A stretch of DNA of 64,000 nt from the NCBI GenBank assembly GCA_015272325.1, contig JACYLU010000036.1:310001-374000 (forward strand), in the 5' to 3' direction. The stretch is from Synechococcales cyanobacterium C42_A2020_086 (GTDB lineage: Bacteria; Cyanobacteriota; Cyanobacteriia; Elainellales; Elainellaceae). The notes beneath the pieces were generated by a model, which saw nothing but the letters and a program-made list of their open reading frames with translations, was not told the origin of the DNA and ran no database searches. This document shows positions 25,474-38,690 of this stretch, one piece after another. Within the stretch, counting starts at the first letter, position 1. Each line of letters starts with the position of its first letter. The translations under genes were made by a program, and so were the position numbers.

Positions 25474-28053
<2,580 letters not shown>

Positions 28054-28946: not shown

Positions 28947-30452
28947 ATGGGTATTCCTCTGCGCATTCTGTGGATTGAAGCCTCTGAAGCAAACCTAAAC
29001 CAGGGACTGCAAGTGCTACGTCACAGTGGCTATCAACCGGTGGTTGTGCGAGTTGATCACGTAAACTGCTTGCAGTGCCAACTGCAGCAACACGGCTGGG
29101 ATGTCGTCCTCTCCGCTTCTGAATTGCCGGGTTTAACGGCATTGGAAGCCTTGCAAATTCTGCAGGCAGTTAAGCCAGACTTGCCATTTATTGTGCTGTC
29201 GCAGCCCCTAGGAGAACGAGCTGCAGTGGCACTCCTGAAAGCAGGTGCGAGTGATTACCTGCCGCAAACCGAGGTGCAGCAATTGGGATTGGTTCTTGCG
29301 GCGGCGCTCCGGCAGGCTGAGGCAAAACGCAAAAGCCAACAGACCGAGATAGCATTGCGGCAGCAGGCGGCAATTGTTGAGGCGGCTGAGGATGCCCTGA
29401 TCAGTACCGATGTTAATGGCCGGGTCCTGACCTGGAATCGAGGAGCAGAGCGGCTCTATGGCTATACAGCGGCAGAAGCCATAGGACAATCCCTAGTGAG
29501 CTTGATTCAGCCTGAAGCCGAGCTGCGTTGGTCAATGCCTCTGCGGCGTTTTGTCATGCGGGTAACGAGCTGTCGGCAGGTGCTGCATCGCCGTAAGACC
29601 GGGGAACTGCTCGATGTGCTGCTGACCATCTCACTGATGCGAGACGCCGGTGAGGTAGTTGGATTTGCGGTGGTGGCACGGGATATCAGCCGGCAATCTA
29701 CCGAGCGGCTGAAGGATGAATTTGTGTCTATCATTAATCACGAATTGCGCACGCCCCTAACGTCGCTGCAAGGTTCCATTGAACTTTTGCTCACAGGTAA
29801 ACTAGGCGAACTCTCACATCAAGGGCAGCGCATGCTGGAGATTGCAGCCAAGAATCTCGACCGACTCGTGCATTTAACCAACAATATTCTGGATCTAGAA
29901 GGGCTATCGTCGGGCAGAATTCAAATCAGTAAACAGCCCTGCCCCTTAGAGCAATTAATGGCTCAGGCTGCAGCGGAACTCCAGCCCATTGCTGCTCAGA
30001 AGGGGATTCGGCTGATTATCGCTTCTCAAGAATTACTACTAACCGTTGATGGACAGCGAATTCAGCAAGTTCTCACCAATTTACTCATGAATGCTATTCA
30101 ATTCTCCCGCCCAGGCAGTAGAGTATGGTTAGAGGCAGAAGTGAGCCGTGCTGGTGTTCCAGGGTTGCCCGAGGGTCCCCATGTGCTGATTCGAGTGAAG
30201 GATGAGGGGCAGGGCATTCCAGCCGACAAGCTGGACGCCATCTTTGAGCAGTTCCAGCAGGTAGATGCCTCTGATTCTCGTCGGCAAGGTGGGGCAGGAC
30301 TGGGACTAGCGATTTGCCGCAACATTGTGCAGCAGCATCAGGGGCATCTCTGGGTCGAAAGTCGCCTTGGCTGCGGCAGTACCTTCTACATCGCCCTGCC
30401 AGCTCAGCACGTTGCGGTCCCAGCTTGTGTCGGGAACACTAGGAGCAACTGA
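28947..30452 (+). CDS. PAS histidine kinase with N-terminal pseudo-receiver
   Basis: 501 residues. Receiver-like domain about 5-120, PAS about 138-250 (AAEDALISTDVNGRVLTWNRGAERLYGYTAAEAIG), HisKA with SIINHELRTPLTSL (H265), HATPase about 375-490 (NLLMNAIQFS, DEGQGIPADKL, GAGLGLAI). In the receiver the acceptor Asp is Ala57 (VVLSASELPG), the acidic pocket is EASEA and the usual Lys is lost (DYLPQTE), so it cannot be phosphorylated in the normal way. The kinase part looks fully active. A stand-alone receiver gene follows after 12 bases and is its probable target. Confidence 0.92.
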   Translation: MGIPLRILWIEASEANLNQGLQVLRHSGYQPVVVRVDHVNCLQCQLQQHGWDVVLSASELPGLTALEALQILQAVKPDLPFIVLSQPLGERAAVALLKAGASDYLPQTEVQQLGLVLAAALRQAEAKRKSQQTEIALRQQAAIVEAAEDALISTDVNGRVLTWNRGAERLYGYTAAEAIGQSLVSLIQPEAELRWSMPLRRFVMRVTSCRQVLHRRKTGELLDVLLTISLMRDAGEVVGFAVVARDISRQSTERLKDEFVSIINHELRTPLTSLQGSIELLLTGKLGELSHQGQRMLEIAAKNLDRLVHLTNNILDLEGLSSGRIQISKQPCPLEQLMAQAAAELQPIAAQKGIRLIIASQELLLTVDGQRIQQVLTNLLMNAIQFSRPGSRVWLEAEVSRAGVPGLPEGPHVLIRVKDEGQGIPADKLDAIFEQFQQVDASDSRRQGGAGLGLAICRNIVQQHQGHLWVESRLGCGSTFYIALPAQHVAVPACVGNTRSN

Positions 30453-30464
30453 AACGCATGGGAG

Positions 30465-30854
30465 ATGTCATCTGTGGCAGGTAAACGGGTTTTGGTGATT
30501 GATGATGAAGATGACATTCGGGAAGTCGCTCAAGTAAGTCTTGAAATCATGGCTGGGCTAGATGTCATCGTTGCCTGTTCCAGTCGTGAAGGGCTAACCA
30601 AGGCTGAACGCGAGCAGCCTGATGCCATCCTGCTCGATGTGATGCTGCCGGATATGGACGGGCTGATGGTTTTTCAGCAGTTGCAGTCTAATCCTGCAAC
30701 CCGGCACATCCCCGTAGTATTACTGACTGCTAAGGTTCAAGTTGCTGATCAGCGGCGCTTTGCTGAACTCGGTGTTAAAGCCATGATTGCCAAACCTTTT
30801 AAACCGGCCCAGCTGGCCGATCAACTACTAGAAGTCTTGGGATGGCAGAACTAA
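30465..30854 (+). CDS. Single-domain response regulator
   Basis: 129 residues, one receiver: VLVIDDEDD acidic pocket, acceptor D58 in AILLDVMLPDMDG, Thr in VVLLTAKV, Lys in IAKPFKP. No output domain, so it works by protein contact or as a shuttle in a relay. Twelve bases after the kinase gene, surely the same transcript. Confidence 0.93.
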   Translation: MSSVAGKRVLVIDDEDDIREVAQVSLEIMAGLDVIVACSSREGLTKAEREQPDAILLDVMLPDMDGLMVFQQLQSNPATRHIPVVLLTAKVQVADQRRFAELGVKAMIAKPFKPAQLADQLLEVLGWQN

Positions 30855-31223: not shown

Positions 31224-32348
31224 ATGATTAGCGATCAATCCTCTCACCCTTCAGATTCTTTATTCGCATCAGCCAAATCCCTTAGTTCTTGTCTGGCACT
31301 CTCAGCCGAACAAGCGGCCTTAGATATCAGCCACGAATTGCGGACGCCGCTGACGGTGATTCAAGGAGCACTGGAGCTACTCGAGAGTGGCAGACTTGGC
31401 CCTTTGTCCGATCAAGGGCAGCGGTTGATTCAAATTGCAACTAGCAATGTTGAGCGGCTGATGCGGCTCACGATTGCCATCGAACAAGAGTCGGAATCGA
31501 TTATTAGCCTACTGTCCACCGAGGAGCTAGCGCGGCTGCGGTTAGAGCGCGATCTCCGCCATGCCCTAGAGCGTCGCCAGCTGAAGCTGCAATATCAGCC
31601 AATCGTGTCATTGGCAACGGGAACGATCATTGGCTTTGAAGTACTCGTTCGCTGGCAACATCCGACGCTGGGAACCATCCCTCCCATCCAGTTCATCCCG
31701 CTAGCTGAGAAAACCGGGCTAATTCTCGACATTGGAACTTGGGTGCTGCGCGAAGCCTGCTATCAACTGCACCAATGGCGTCAGCACTACTTTTCAGAGT
31801 TTCAGATGCTAACTATTAGCGTTAATCTGTCGTGCCAACAGATTGCCTGCCCGAGTCTACCGCAGTCCATTCAGCAAATTCTCTGCGAGACGGAGCTGCC
31901 AGCCCACTGTCTGAAACTCGAAATCACCGAAAGTTCGATTAAAGAGTCTGCTGCTGCCGTAGAGCTAGTGTTGAGTCAACTGCAAGTGCTGGGTGTGCAG
32001 CTCTACATCGATGACTTTGGAACGGGCTACTCTTCCTTAAGCCGTTTGCTCGAGCTGCCGCTGGATGTACTAAAAATCGATCGATCGTTTGTGCAGCAGC
32101 TTTCTTCCAAGCGGGGCGAATTTTTGGTGCGAGCCATTGCCAACCTGGCTCACAATCTAGGCATCGATGTGATTGCGGAAGGGGTAGAAACAGAGGAGCA
32201 GGCGCTGAAGCTGCAGGCGCTGGGCTGCCAACGAGGACAGGGCTACTTCTTTGCCCGACCGCTCGACAGCCAGGCCATTCCCCCCCTGATTTGCAATTTA
32301 TCCACTTCTCTGCAGGTTGCTGGTCGAGTCGCCAATGTCAGGGTTTAA
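31224..32348 (+). CDS. HisKA-EAL protein (cyclic-di-GMP phosphodiesterase with kinase dimerisation domain)
   Basis: 374 residues. Residues about 30-95 form a HisKA module ([23 protein letters not shown]37) but no HATPase follows; instead an EAL domain fills about 105-350. EAL catalytic residues are all present: E139 (EVLVRW, EVL form), N201, E233, D263 and D264 (DDFGTGYSS), K284, E319 and E322 (EGVETEE). It should hydrolyse c-di-GMP. The HisKA part is visibly similar to that of the kinase at 28947 (LSDQGQRLIQIATSNVERL against LSHQGQRMLEIAAKNLDRL), so phosphorylation by that kinase or hetero-dimerisation is a reasonable inference. This architecture is rare to my knowledge. Confidence 0.9.
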   Translation: MISDQSSHPSDSLFASAKSLSSCLALSAEQAALDISHELRTPLTVIQGALELLESGRLGPLSDQGQRLIQIATSNVERLMRLTIAIEQESESIISLLSTEELARLRLERDLRHALERRQLKLQYQPIVSLATGTIIGFEVLVRWQHPTLGTIPPIQFIPLAEKTGLILDIGTWVLREACYQLHQWRQHYFSEFQMLTISVNLSCQQIACPSLPQSIQQILCETELPAHCLKLEITESSIKESAAAVELVLSQLQVLGVQLYIDDFGTGYSSLSRLLELPLDVLKIDRSFVQQLSSKRGEFLVRAIANLAHNLGIDVIAEGVETEEQALKLQALGCQRGQGYFFARPLDSQAIPPLICNLSTSLQVAGRVANVRV

Positions 32349-32562: not shown

Positions 32563-35500
32563 ATGCCTTCTGATCCACATATGATGTCTGAAACGCTCCT
32601 GATTGTTGAGGCGTCTCCCCATCACCAGCAGCTGACCCAACCACTGCAGGAGCATGGCTATCACACACAGGGTGTGGCGAGCGGCAGAGCGGCTTTGCTG
32701 CTGCTTCAGTCTCAGAGGGATTGGCTGCCCCATTTAATCTTGCTGGATCTAAAGCTGCCCGATATGGATGGGTATGAAGTTTGCCGGTGCTTGAAGGCTG
32801 ATGCTCGTACCTGTGCCATTCCTGTGATTTTCCTGAGTGCGAGGGAGGATGCCTTTGATCCAACCCGTGCTTTTCAAGTGGGAGGAGCAGACTACCTCAT
32901 CCGACCGTTTCCAATAGTGGAGATGATTGCTCGCATCGAGAACCAGCTGCGGATGCAGCGATTGCAGCGACAGCTAAGCCAGCAGAATCAGCAACTCCGC
33001 CAAGAAATACAGGCTCGGGAAACCGCGGAGCAGGTGTTGGCGCAACAGATGCAGCGAGGGTTGCTGTTGCACCAAGTCATTGCAACGGTGCGCTCCCGGA
33101 TCGACAGTCAATCGATGTTTGAGGCTATCGTGCAGCATATTGGGCAAGCATTGCCGATGAGCCGCTGTGCGATTCACCTTTATGAAGCACTGCCGATTCC
33201 CGAGTTTCCCCTGATCGCCGAGTATGTGCCGCCAGAGGCTCTGCTGCTAGACCATCGCTTTCTCCAAGACTACGACCTGCCGGTCAACGATCCGCTGGTG
33301 CAAGAGGCGCTGAGTCGAGACCGAGCGGTGATCGCTACCCCCGAAGCGACGGCACGACTGCTCTCCACAGCTTGCCCTGCGACCGGGTTGCTGATTGTAC
33401 GCACCTCCTACCAAAATCAGCCGAATGGATTGGTCATTCTTCAGTCGGCAGCTCACCCTTCGTGGACAGTGGATGACATCGAGCTGCTCGAAGCGATTGC
33501 CGCACAGGTGGGAATTGCCGTTGCCCAGGCCAAGTCCCATGAGCAACAGCAAAAACAGCGCGAAGCCCTGGACTATAGCAGCTCTATTTTGCGGCAGGAT
33601 ATCACGGCTCGCAAACAAACCGAGGCAGAACTGCGAAAACAGTCGCTAGCGCTTGAGGAGTTTAGTCGCAACCTCAAGCATCTGCATCGCCTCTGCCTGA
33701 CTGACTTTAAAACCATTGGACATCTCTGTGCCGATTACCTGAAGACGGGCTGTCAGTTTCTGGGATTTTCTGATGGAGTTGTGGGCTGCCTGCACAACCA
33801 GCGCTATAAAGTGCTCGCCGTTCACTCTCAGTTTGCTTCGCTGGTGCCTAACCTCGAACTGGACTTGGAAGACACCTATTGCCATGCCGTGATTCAGCAG
33901 GGGCAGACGGTTTGCTATGACAATGTGGGCGCCATAGAGGCGTTAGCGTGCCATCCGCTCTACCAACACTTGCGCATCCATTCCTATATCGGCACCCCCA
34001 TTTTTGTCGATGGCAAGCTCTACGGCACCCTCTGCTTCTTTTCCACAGCTATCCGTCCGCAGGGCTATCGGCACCACGAGCAGGAAATCATCGAACTCAT
34101 GGCGCAGAGTATTGGCAAGTTTATCCATACTCATCAGGTGAAAGCCAAGCGACACCAAGCCGAGGAACAAGTCCAGCTATTGCTGGATATTACCCAGGAC
34201 ATTACTGCTGCCCCCGACTTCAACCAGGCGCTCTATGTCGCTCTAGAGAAATTGTGCCAAGCCACCAACTGGATCTACGGCGAGGTGTGGCTACCCTCAG
34301 CTGACGGTCGCGTTTTGGAATCCAGCTCAGTTTACTATTGCAACCCCCAGGAACAGCACCCGGCGGCTGTGGCGGCTGTGCAGCAGCTACGCCGAAGCCT
34401 GCAAGGTGTAACCTTTCGCCCTGGAGAAGGCATCGCCGGACGAGTCTGGAGCCGCCAACAACCTGAATGGACACTCGATACCGATAGCGGGACCGTGCTG
34501 CCCTCAAACCAGGGGTTTTCCTATCGGTTGCAGCTAGTGAATCACTGCGGTATTCGCGCTCGTTTGGGGGTTCCCATCACCGTTGCCTACGACCGCCGTA
34601 TCCCAGCCCATTGGGGAGAGGAGTCAGCTGCATCGTCTGGCTCCACCCAAGCTGTGGTGCTGGCTGTGCTTGTCTTTTTCACCGTTGAACCCCGCCCGCA
34701 AGACAAACGATTGATTCAGCTCGTTTCGGCCGTGGCAACCCAGTTGGGGACGGTGCTAGCCCAGAAACAGGCGGAAGCAGAATTGCAGGCGCTCTTCTCT
34801 GCCATGACGGATGTGGTGCTGGTGCGCGATGCGGCCGGCCGCTGCCTAAAGATCGCCTCGACGGGTCCTAACCTTTACAGACCTGTCCCTGAAATGTTGG
34901 GCAAAACACTGCATGAAACCCTGCCTCTGGAGGTCGCCGATCTGTTGCTCTCAGGTATTCAAGAGAGCTTGAGAACTCGCAAAACGGTCAATCTAGAATA
35001 TCAGCTCTGCATCCGCGAGCGTCAGGTGTGGCTTGCAGCGAGTATATCGCCTCTGTCGGACAATACAGTGCTGATTGTTGGGCGCGATATCAGCGATCGC
35101 AAACAGGTTGAAGAAGCCCTAGCCCGGCGCGAGCGCTATTTAGCCGCCCTCGTGGAAGTGCAGCGCGAACTGTTGGCAGCGCGAGAAGCCGAGCCTAATT
35201 ACCCAGAAATTTTGCGGCTGCTAGGACGGGTTGCTCAGGCCGCTCAGGTGCATCTTTTGACCTACCAACTCACGGCAGAGGGACAGTATCGCTGGAAGTC
35301 GTATTCCGATGGGTCTTATGGATCTAAGAAATTCAGAGAGGTGGATGCCCCACCATTGCCAGAGTCAGAGCAGCATTTGCTGCCAGTCCATCCGGCGGTG
35401 TTTCCTCGCTGGGTACAGCAGCTAGCCTCAGGAGAGCCGATCAGCGGCACTTGGAGCGATTTCCCCGAGGAAGAGCGATCGGAATTAGCCGCGCAGGGCA

Positions 35501-37377
35501 TTACTTCGGTGCTGGCGCTGCCGCTGATTGTAAATGGTCAGTTCTGGGGATTGATTCGGTTCGACAATCGAGCCGCGGGGCAGGGATGGGATGCTCTAGA
35601 CATCCGCCTGTTGAGTACTGCTGCTTCCGCTATTTCGCTGCACTGCGAACGCCAATTGGCGGAAGATGCCCTACGCCAGAGTGCTGCTCGAGAGCAGTCC
35701 ACGTTGCGGGTCATTGAGCACATGCGGCAAACACTGGACATCGAGCAGATCTTCCGGACAACAACCGACGAGTTGCGCCAACTGCTGAAGTGCGACCGCG
35801 TTCTAATCTATCGGTTCCAGCCTGACTGGAGCGGCACCTGCGTCGCTGAATCGGTAGGGGAGCCATGGACGCCTGTCTTGGCATCAACCGAGATGGAGAT
35901 TGCCCATGCCTGCGAAGGCAACCACTGCCGAGTCAAAACCTGGGACCAAGATCACATTTCCGATACGTATCTTCAAGAAACCCAGGGTGGGGTCTATCGC
36001 CAAGGAACCCCCTATCTCAGTGTTGCCGATATCTCCCAGGCTGGATTCTCTGCGTGCTACCGGCAGCTTCTAGAACGATTGCAAGCGAAAGCCTATCTCA
36101 CCTTACCGATCTCTCAGGGCAATCGCCTCTGGGGCTTGTTGTCTGCCTATCAGAATGCCCATCCGCGAGAGTGGCAGCCCGCTGATATTGCTCTGGCAAC
36201 TCACATCAGTACCCAGCTTGGGGTAGCTTTGCAGCAGGCAGACTTGCTCCAGCAAACTCAGCAACAGTCTGAGGCGCTAGCTAAGGCACGAGACGCCGCT
36301 GAGGCAGCCAACCGGGCAAAAAGCCAATTTCTGGCCAACATGAGCCACGAATTGCGGACGCCACTCAATTCCATTCTGGGATTTACTCAACTGCTGCATC
36401 AGGATACGGCGCTGGGGTTGGAATACCAAAAGTATCTGGACATCATTAACCGCAGTGGGCAACATCTGCTGGAGCTGATCAACGAGGTGTTGGAAGCCTC
36501 AAAGTTAGAAGCCGGGCAAGTGAGTGTCAACGTGAGTGAGTTTGACCTGTCTCTTCTGCTCAACGATCTCGAAGCTATGGTGCGGCAACAGGCAAAACAA
36601 AAACGCCTCACGCTGACGGTTGCTTGCGATGCCGATGTACCGCAGCGGCTCATCACCGATCAAAGCAAACTGCGGCAAGTTCTCTTGAATTTGCTTGATA
36701 ATGCGATTAAGTTCACTCAGACCGGAGGTGTGATGCTGCGGGTCAAACGAGTCCCTGTTGACTCCCCTCTTGATCCTCGTGATTCAGTGGGCAAATCCGT
36801 GTTGGATCAGATCAAGCTGCCAGAGGTGACCTGCCCAGCTACTCCCGGCGATGGGCAACCGTCAATCCGGCAAGTGCTGCGTTTTGAGGTTGAAGATACT
36901 GGATTTGGGATTGCGCCAGATGAGATGGACTCGCTATTCCAAGCGTTTGTGCAAACGGAAGCAGGACGGCAATCCAATGGTGGCACTGGGTTGGGTCTGG
37001 TAATTAGCCGCAAGTTCATTAACTTACTAGGAGGAGAAATTCAGGTCCAGAGTCAACCTGGGCAGGGGACGGTATTTTGGTTCGATTTGCCGGTTCAAAT
37101 TCCCACTACCCCCCCTCCTGTACTGGTCACTGCTGCAACCAAGGGTGGCATCATGCCCACACCAACATCTCCCCTGCTCACACCAGCAGATCTAGCGGTT
37201 ATGCCGGCTGAATGGGTGTCGCAGCTGCATCAGGCGGCGTTGGGTTGTAGCGACCGGCAGGTGCTAGAGCTTGTTGCCCAAATTCCGGAAGCCCACAGCA
37301 GTCTGGCTCATCGGCTTGCCGAATTGGTGGACAATTTCTGCTTTGCAGAAATCGTGGAATTGACGACTGTATCTTAG
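32563..37377 (+). CDS. Multi-GAF hybrid histidine kinase with cyanobacteriochrome-like GAF
   Basis: 1604 residues. Receiver about 10-130 (D62; acidic pocket weakened to VEASPH); coiled coil about 132-160; GAF about 165-335; GAF about 375-530; GAF about 545-735; PAS about 740-860; GAF about 865-1040; GAF about 1050-1230; HisKA with [12 protein letters not shown] (H1262); HATPase about 1365-1510 with an insertion before DTGFGIAP; and a C-terminal ~80-residue helical tail found on many cyanobacterial kinases. The fifth GAF reads [14 protein letters not shown], then [23 protein letters not shown], then [13 protein letters not shown], close to the red/green cyanobacteriochrome lineage, with C1165 at the bilin site followed by Tyr. 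ATG 32581 or 32584 are alternative starts. Confidence 0.9.
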
Positions 37378-37460
37378 CTATATCTCTCTAAAATCCGCCT
37401 TTATCTGTTTTTAGGATTCAGTGTTTAGGATCCGTCTTAGAGCAGCCTTGAATTAATCTG

Positions 37461-37489
37461 GAATCAGTCCTGAATCAGTCCTGAATCAG
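37461..37489. repeat. 11-bp tandem repeat, 2.6 copies
   Basis: gaatcagtcct / gaatcagtcct / gaatcag, ending 13 bases before the next gene's ATG. Confidence 0.9.
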
Positions 37490-37502
37490 CGATGAACCCA
37501 TC

Positions 37503-38690
37503 ATGAATACCATGCCCTCGAATCAACTCCATTCTGAATCGCCCGCAACGAAAGGAAACATCCTGATCGTTGACGACACCCCCAACAATTTACGGCTGCT
37601 GTCTTCGATGCTGACTCGGCAAGGATACGAGGTGCGGAGTGCTATTAGTGGCTCCGTTGCCTTGATGGCAGTGCAAACCGTTCAGCTCGATCTGATCCTG
37701 TTAGATATCAACATGCCGACTATGAACGGCTATGAGGTCTGCGAACGACTTAAGGCCGAAGAGCAAACCCGCGATATTCCGGTGATCTTTCTGAGTGCGC
37801 TTGGGGAACCCATAGATAAGGTACAAGCCTTTCGAGTCGGCGGAGTGGACTACATCACCAAACCCTTTCAGGTGGAGGAAGTGCTGGCTCGGGTCGAGAA
37901 TCATCTCACGTTGCGCCGCGTGCAGCTAGAGTTGCAGCAAGCAAAAACCAACGCCCTGAATGCTCTGGCTCAGGAGCAGGAATTAAATCGGCTGAAATCA
38001 GAATTTGTCTCGATGATTTCCCACGATTTTCGGACGCCGCTGACCAGCATTCAAGCCTTTGCCGAATTGCTCCGGTTCAACAGTGATGATTTGTCTCCAG
38101 AACTGCGAGACCGCTATTTCGAAAAAATAGACGCTGCTGTTGAGCATCTGCTCTACTTGCTGAATGAGGTGCTGTTGATTGGCAGCATTGAAGCCGGAAA
38201 AACGCAATGTCAGCCGGAATTGATGGATCTGGAGAAGTTTTGTCGCGATCTGTGTGAAACGGTGCAGCTTTCAGAAAATCATCATCAGATTCAGTTTCGC
38301 TGTACGGGTGATTGTTCGCAGGCGGAGATGGATCAGATGTTGCTGCGACGCATCCTGATGAATTTATTGTCGAATGCAATTAAATATTCCCCAGAACAGT
38401 CTTTAGTGCAGCTCGACCTGAGCTGTGGAGAGGGTCAGGCTGTGTTGCAAGTTCAAGATCAGGGCATTGGCATTCCCCTCGATAATCAGCCCCATTTATT
38501 TAAAACATTCTACCGCTGCAGTAACGTTGGGCAGATCAAAGGAACTGGGCTAGGGCTAGCCGTTGTCAAGCGCTGCGTTGATGCCCATCAAGGGCAGATT
38601 CAGTTGGTGAGTGAAGAAGGCGTGGGTACAACTGTTACGGTCACTTTGCCGCTGTTCCGTTCGCCAGTCGGTTCTGAGCTGCCATCGTGA
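37503..38690 (+). CDS. REC-histidine kinase
   Basis: 395 residues. Receiver about 17-135 (NILIVDDTPNNL, D68 in LILLDINMPTMNG, ITKPF), coiled-coil linker about 140-165, HisKA with SMISHDFRTPLTSI, HATPase about 265-390 (NLLSNAIKYS, DQGIGIPLD, GTGLGLAVV). A soluble receiver-first kinase of the type common in cyanobacteria; it would be driven by phosphorylation of its receiver rather than by a bound ligand. It lies 125 bases after the multi-GAF kinase and closes the signalling island. Confidence 0.93.
   Translation: MNTMPSNQLHSESPATKGNILIVDDTPNNLRLLSSMLTRQGYEVRSAISGSVALMAVQTVQLDLILLDINMPTMNGYEVCERLKAEEQTRDIPVIFLSALGEPIDKVQAFRVGGVDYITKPFQVEEVLARVENHLTLRRVQLELQQAKTNALNALAQEQELNRLKSEFVSMISHDFRTPLTSIQAFAELLRFNSDDLSPELRDRYFEKIDAAVEHLLYLLNEVLLIGSIEAGKTQCQPELMDLEKFCRDLCETVQLSENHHQIQFRCTGDCSQAEMDQMLLRRILMNLLSNAIKYSPEQSLVQLDLSCGEGQAVLQVQDQGIGIPLDNQPHLFKTFYRCSNVGQIKGTGLGLAVVKRCVDAHQGQIQLVSEEGVGTTVTVTLPLFRSPVGSELPS

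Follow-up and report, generated by a model that had tools for sequence, protein, structure and literature searches.

The window examined in this study is a stretch of 64,000 nucleotides from Synechococcales cyanobacterium C42_A2020_086, and one of its genes encodes a protein that joins a HisKA domain, the His-bearing dimer domain of a histidine kinase, to an EAL domain. This build raises the question of what a HisKA does on a cyclic di-GMP (c-di-GMP) phosphodiesterase when no ATPase domain is present, and with which protein of its surroundings it works. An earlier note on this DNA had suggested that the HisKA is a phosphotransfer module that switches c-di-GMP breakdown, with the kinase two genes upstream as its partner and the stand-alone receiver between them as a possible acceptor of the phosphoryl group.

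The HisKA-EAL protein and its family

The Pfam scan of the protein returned only two domains at E ≤ 0.01, a HisKA at residues 31–83 (46.7 bits, cut-off 26.9) and an EAL at residues 109–346 (265.1 bits, cut-off 31.3), and no HATPase was found by it. H37 lies within the motif SHELRTPL, and the EAL part contains E139 (in the motif EVL), N201, E233, D263/D264, K284, E319, E322 and Q339, which we take to be the EAL catalytic set. The ExLxR, N, E, DD, K, E and Q residues were found together with the EAL fold by Pfam, alignment and Foldseek. Pfam and alignment thus agree with the earlier description of a phosphorylatable-type HisKA with H37, no HATPase and a complete set of EAL residues.

An AlphaFold model of the monomer, built on a 20-row alignment, predicts helices at residues 9–54 and 63–96 and a third one at residues 99–114, which enters the EAL domain. 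In this model, the HisKA region is a two-helix hairpin of moderate confidence only (pLDDT of about 64–80 in ten-residue blocks), and with the same moderate confidence the hairpin of 9–54 and 63–96 is the DHp hairpin expected of a HisKA. The modelled EAL part superposes on the EAL structures of BifA and MucR at 1.3–1.5 Å, the Foldseek comparison with the BifA EAL (8arv) giving 1.3 Å. By its predicted domains, the protein is an ATPase-less DHp (transmitter) module fused to an EAL phosphodiesterase, and the residues listed above suggest that this c-di-GMP phosphodiesterase is probably active. The features of the locus are collected in Table 1.

Table 1. Features of the HisKA-EAL locus, with positions in the window.
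Feature	Position	Strand	Basis or remark
Response regulator REC-wHTH-Hpt-REC, RppA-like, relay component	25474-27018	+	Pfam; NCBIfam NF041734
Histidine kinase REC-PAS-HisKA-HATPase	28947-30452	+	Pfam; adjacent in 5/63 loci
Stand-alone receiver (REC), candidate partner	30465-30854	+	Pfam, linkage, trees, co-occurrence
HisKA-EAL protein	31224-32348	+	374 aa, ATG start, one stop at end, no HATPase
HisKA / DHp domain (residues 31-83)	31314-31472	+	Pfam, host-genome search, AlphaFold model
H37 codon, candidate phospho-acceptor	31332-31334	+	Sequence and conservation
EAL phosphodiesterase domain (residues 109-346)	31548-32261	+	Pfam, conservation, Foldseek
Multi-GAF histidine kinase, downstream	32563-37377	+	Pfam; homologue beside HisKA-EAL in L102, L103, L104

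At least 63 HisKA-EAL proteins, the one of the window and 62 others, were found in at least 55 of 388 genomes of the cyanobacterial class, and they are spread over at least 11 coded families (counted by hand). They were collected by an alignment search in which the best five candidates per genome were scored and by a query made of the HisKA, the linker and the start of the EAL (best 11 candidates or fewer); the counts are lower bounds because few candidates per genome were scored. The open frames of the members are 327–426 aa long, and the proteins are 41–72% identical to that of the window. In the Pfam scan, EAL was found in all 63 members and HisKA in 60, and neither Hpt nor a fused Response_reg was found in any of the 63. 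HATPase was found in 0/63 as well, partly by construction because the query favours a HisKA directly joined to an EAL; this zero shows that the build is common and says nothing against the existence of HisKA-HATPase-EAL proteins.

The five closest homologues (62–72% identical), which came from a full-length search and not from a query of the HisKA-EAL junction, likewise have no HATPase. At E ≤ 1e-100, the full-length search found the protein in 6 of the 36 genomes of the host order, its own included, and all 36 belong to the host's family. Since the HATPase is missing in the homologues too, its loss in this strain only, which the earlier note had named as evidence against its own reading, is ruled out. 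A split kinase, with the HATPase encoded nearby, was also rejected, as the HATPase ORFs beside the distant members L140, L142, L143, L145, L151 and L153 also match HisKA, weakly or partially, and therefore look like complete kinases and not like ATPase-only genes. At the level of sequence, the HisKA-EAL without HATPase is shown to be a recurrent protein build of cyanobacteria.

Outside the cyanobacterial class the sampling was small, and no short HisKA-EAL was found in 16 named genomes or in 299 further ones from the phylum to which G398 belongs (best 15 candidates or fewer per genome). G398 gave one match to query residues 24–120, which lies inside an 806-aa frame. Two partial matches, L261 and L264, were rejected, being by eye kinases with an ATPase region; the longer tblastn matches L043, L057 and L073 fall in ORFs of 722–820 aa, and a plasmid search returned a single match, to EAL only. 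Two short-frame partial matches (in G019 and G031) and the HisKA-only matches were left out of the 63. A single origin of the family is compatible with the EAL tree but unsupported by it (support 36). A tandem pair of HisKA-EAL genes was seen at L173:5845–8069 in G103, which has three in total.

The receiver, the kinase and other companions

The neighbours of the gene are those that the earlier note had described, with REC, PAS, HisKA and HATPase found by Pfam in the upstream kinase and a single domain in the receiver. The close likeness claimed for the two HisKAs was also found, the HisKA of this kinase being 57% identical over residues 33–86 and the best HisKA match in the host genome (G000), in which 90 HisKA stretches were found. 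The same note had proposed a search for HATPase-less HisKA-EAL genes and their gene context. Around the at least 63 genes so found, a REC from the sub-family of the window REC is encoded at most 6 kb upstream and in the same orientation at 38/63 loci (within 1 kb at 30), and a homologue of the kinase (>300 bits, within 6 kb upstream) at 5/63 (the window, L103, L104, L105 and L137). In G011 (L102:10587–11949), the kinase has decayed to two remnants among stop codons, beside which the REC and a HisKA-EAL 72% identical to that of the window are intact. These loci do not bear out a specific partnership with the upstream kinase. What stands of the earlier interpretation is that an EAL whose expected catalytic residues are present carries a HisKA retained as a module of the phosphotransfer type, and that a receiver is implicated with it. 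With a REC at 38 loci and the kinase at five and decayed in G011, the receiver is the more conserved companion, and gene context makes it the better partner candidate; the kinase is likely one source of phosphate for the REC.

Within 6 kb of the nine other EAL genes of the host, no sub-family REC was found (0/9; coordinates compared by eye). In the linked RECs, the phospho-acceptor Asp, the Thr and the Lys are invariant in 38/38 rows (37 genes). In a first REC tree, whose controls were host paralogues only, 37 of the 38 linked rows fell into one unstarred group (92/87). A second tree added 20 unlinked RECs from other HisKA-EAL genomes, giving 26 unlinked rows in total, and did not uphold this grouping, so that a single REC lineage was rejected. 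In the second tree, which is the better controlled one, 36 of the 37 distinct linked RECs fell into two starred groups, a result favoured by the way in which linked RECs were chosen, on a similarity of >100 bits to two of their own number; L147 is in neither group. The group of the window REC holds 8 linked and 2 unlinked rows (100/98), and the other 28 linked and 1 unlinked (99/85), which leaves 3 of the 26 unlinked RECs inside the two.

The co-occurrence of REC and HisKA-EAL is a test free of this selection bias. A REC with 200 bits or more to that of the window was found in 7 of the 36 genomes of the family (G000, G010, G011, G013, G016, G019 and G020), a co-occurrence limited by the relatedness of these genomes, which represent four coded genera. 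Six of the seven are the six genomes with a window-type HisKA-EAL, and in the seventh, G019, a fragment of a HisKA-EAL lies in a short frame close to the start of a contig. No window-type REC was found in the other 29 genomes of the family (0/29), where the next scores are 180, 168, 164 and 162 bits. The added controls weakened the claim of a single REC lineage and strengthened the co-occurrence, and the odds of our reading are unchanged. As far as trees and genome comparison go, RECs of this sub-family, mostly of two tight groups, are shown to accompany the HisKA-EAL gene.

At 25/63 loci no REC lies upstream on the same strand; four of these have less than 2.5 kb of upstream contig and two have a REC on the opposite strand. 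Sub-family RECs occur somewhere in all 19 searched genomes, which hold 21 of these 25 members (E ≤ 1e-25), and some of these RECs sit 5–9 kb from the HisKA-EAL gene. Two of the unlinked RECs in the starred groups are L265 (in G243) and L277 (in G050), genomes in which the HisKA-EAL loci L139 and L143 are without a REC; their position away from these loci would fit a partner that has moved.

The relationship of the HisKA itself points to the same sub-family of receivers. Of the 89 other HisKAs of the host, exactly six are encoded within 3 kb of one of its sub-family RECs, which are seven single-domain RECs with 100 bits or more to that of the window, and these six HisKAs are also the ones most similar to that of the window. 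The probability of this coincidence would be 1.7e-9 if the two were independent, a value that is too small because kinase-REC units seem to have duplicated jointly, and the coincidence is best taken as a sign of a recognition system with common ancestry. In a ranking against 32 host HisKAs, from which L252 was dropped as its motif was not found, the top match of all 63 family HisKAs lies among these six. All six are placed above the remaining host HisKAs by 58/63 members, and the HisKA of the upstream kinase is the best match for 43/63. The residue at the offset H+12 from the His, which we take to be an EnvZ-type specificity position, is A, V or S in 63/63 members and A, S or T in the six nearest host HisKAs. 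It is bulkier in 24 of the 26 other host HisKAs, the exceptions being L242 (Cys) and L245 (Ala). In both the ranking and this comparison, the HisKA of the large kinase of the window was counted twice (as L229 and as bigHK). The specificity positions of EnvZ are covered in the available part of PMC2991266. By similarity, the window HisKA is shown to belong to a sub-family of kinase HisKAs that are encoded beside one sub-family of stand-alone RECs.

Six host loci, L253–L258 (G000 C20, C30 twice, C27, C34 and C8), are paralogous to the window module. A regulator, a kinase and a REC are present at L254, L255, L256 and L258 (domains assigned by eye and by the host HisKA and REC searches). At L257 a regulator-like start is fused to the kinase and a REC is also present, and L253 has a regulator and a REC without a kinase. 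The loci on C27, C34 and C8 have a second REC-like match nearby.

The regulator at the head of the window module matches NCBIfam NF041734 with 284.7 bits (cut-off 250), and a relative of it lies upstream on the same strand at 28 of the 38 REC-linked loci. At L144:1008–3380, the module regulator consists of three REC, a wHTH, an Hpt and a C-terminal GGDEF, and it adjoins the REC and the HisKA-EAL gene. At 14 loci (counted from the list), less than 150 bp separates the HisKA-EAL gene from the start of a downstream gene with a GGDEF motif, and Pfam confirms the GGDEF in both genes tested, L161 and L160, the latter also with an EAL. Such downstream genes and the GGDEF of the L144 regulator support a role in c-di-GMP metabolism. 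Two further kinases follow the HisKA-EAL gene of the window (32563–38690; Pfam), of which the multi-GAF kinase is a possible further input of uncertain membership.

Two other gene types were seen around these loci. A HetR-like gene (27015–28025, minus strand) separates the regulator of the window module from its kinase, and a HetR homologue is also present upstream in L102–L105. A family of small ORFs of about 80–125 aa, with the pattern '...FKYWNEGI...CITVSKTHY.VWL.LRS', was found upstream of the HisKA-EAL gene in 30/63 loci, usually between it and the REC (for example L141:8008–8376, L144:4271–4648 and L161:10144–10386). None was detected upstream in the window, and this family gave no Pfam match in the members tested and no NCBIfam match in the one tested.

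Conservation of the histidine and control of the EAL domain

Every listed EAL residue is retained in 62 or 63 of the 63 members, and a His at the position of H37 in 56/63, or in 43 of the 49 members that are non-redundant at 80%. Around it, E38, R40, T41, P42 and L43 are each retained in 43 to 48 of these 49 (T41 in 43), and an acidic residue adjoins the His in 47. In the seven members without the His, L179, L218 and L220 among them, it is replaced by D, Q or Y or the motif is destroyed, and all seven retain all EAL residues, so that a phospho-His is not indispensable. On a tree of EAL columns, the state of the His changed at least five times, a count that cannot give the direction, and the changes are most simply losses. 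The RTPL is intact in 53/56 His-bearing against 1/7 His-less members; the two co-vary, and the patch of phospho-chemistry therefore tends to stay or vanish as a unit. The helix positions A72, L79, R78 and L82 are better conserved than H37.

Loss of the REC as a route to loss of the His was tried and rejected. The REC is present at 37/52 loci with the His and at 1/7 without it (uncorrected Fisher 0.006), but the association finds no support on the tree (4 independent pairs), and every genome with one of the seven His-less members carries sub-family RECs. L220, in which H is changed to Q, retains a linked REC with an intact Asp.

The reading that we favour, at about even odds (roughly 0.5), is that c-di-GMP hydrolysis is gated by an ATPase-less DHp on which its receiver docks, in the manner of Spo0F and Spo0B, with an EAL as the output. 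The HisKA hairpin would dimerize the enzyme, and the upstream kinase or a paralogue elsewhere would phosphorylate the REC. The phosphorylated REC would then dock on the DHp, where it may exchange its phosphate with H37 (Asp to His, as between Spo0F and Spo0B) or lose it. Docking or the phospho-state would alter the linker helix (about residues 84–114) and hence the EAL dimer, switching hydrolysis. The Hpt of the regulator may serve as the second arm of this relay, so that one signal would act on both transcription and c-di-GMP. From this arrangement we infer a phosphotransfer from the REC to H37. The fuller version, in which the phosphate of the receiver passes to the His of the ATPase-less DHp and sets c-di-GMP breakdown, and several lineages later lost the His and came under phosphate-independent control, is tentative and somewhat short of an even chance.

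The CA domain of EnvZ can phosphorylate a separate EnvZ DHp in trans, and in a similar way the upstream kinase, or a paralogue, might use its HATPase to phosphorylate H37 directly, either within a heterodimer or in trans; the REC would then act downstream of H37. The HisKA of this kinase, as the closest in the genome and the best match of most members, fits such a route, and so does the acidic residue beside the His in 47 of the 49 non-redundant members, which according to the available part of PMC3510030 is needed in HisKA proteins for the kinase and not for the phosphatase activity. This acidic E, however, is also retained in 5/7 His-less members and is therefore of no diagnostic value, and with the kinase adjacent in only five loci and decayed in G011, direct phosphorylation by the kinase seems unlikely. 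It is likewise doubtful that the HisKA merely holds the EAL dimer together while the REC binds as an allosteric switch or sink and the His is never phosphorylated. The five or more changes in the state of the His while the EAL residues stayed intact, the four helix positions conserved above H37 and the REC of the His-less L220 would all suit this arrangement, but the His persists in 56/63 members despite identities of 41–72% to the window protein, and the RTPL is rarely intact once the His is gone.

In HisKA kinases, the T or N of the motif is needed for phosphatase activity (PMC3510030, in its available part), and T41 is present in 43 of the 49 non-redundant members. Together with a docking surface that the HisKA shares with the REC-linked kinases, this would be consistent with a DHp that drains the phosphorylated REC as a phosphatase or phosphate sink and tunes the relay of kinase and regulator, the EAL being separately constitutive. 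The conservation of the EAL active-site residues throughout the family and the GGDEF-motif genes downstream at 14 loci argue instead for a c-di-GMP output, and they make a mere drain very improbable.

Comparison with known systems

The favoured reading of a receiver docked on an ATPase-less DHp recalls the Spo0F-Spo0B pair, in which a stand-alone REC meets a dimeric DHp-type phosphotransferase that is unable to autophosphorylate, the same properties being putative here. In Spo0B a degenerate ATPase-like domain is retained and an enzymatic output is lacking, whereas the C-terminal part of the window protein is an EAL and no CA-like domain is present. In RocR and PvrR, an EAL is under a two-component relay and the phosphate input is the Asp of a fused REC. 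The EAL of these REC-EAL regulators (RocR, PDB 3sy8) is similar to that of the window protein, but in the latter it is a His-bearing module that is fused to the EAL, and the REC is a protein of its own.

EAL proteins with HisKA, HATPase, HAMP and Hpt are described from Caulobacterales and Rhizobiales in the available part of PMC9756655. They link histidine-kinase parts to an EAL, as here, but this cluster has HATPase and HAMP, neither of which was found in the present proteins, whose hosts are cyanobacteria. Standalone HisKA or Hpt proteins, called 'PP', have been counted in thermophilic cyanobacteria (PMC9953108), and they share with the present family a HisKA without HATPase in this group; in this census proteins are counted, and the word EAL occurs 0 times in its main text as available. 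The legend of an Anabaena census names REC, PAS, GAF, FHA, GGDEF, EAL and transmembrane parts and, in the portion available, no HisKA (PMC13075795). No description of a HisKA-EAL without HATPase was recognized among the papers listed by full-text searches, which mostly leave subscription papers outside, and the term 'HisKA-EAL' was unmatched in them. Among the best 25 of 38 NCBIfam matches, no model covers both HisKA and EAL.

Enzymes of c-di-GMP turnover commonly take in two-component signals through a fused receiver. The HisKA-EAL build is wider in occurrence than the earlier note knew, and in this widespread cyanobacterial build the His-bearing dimer domain of a kinase appears to serve as the input, accompanied by a receiver that is a separate protein. 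Rather than generating phosphate itself, the HisKA-EAL protein probably reads a phosphate relay, and its natural His-less members are ready-made controls. If this is true, a phospho-His-gated enzyme would join the outputs of phosphorelays, and in cyanobacteria c-di-GMP would be connected with an RppA-like relay module.
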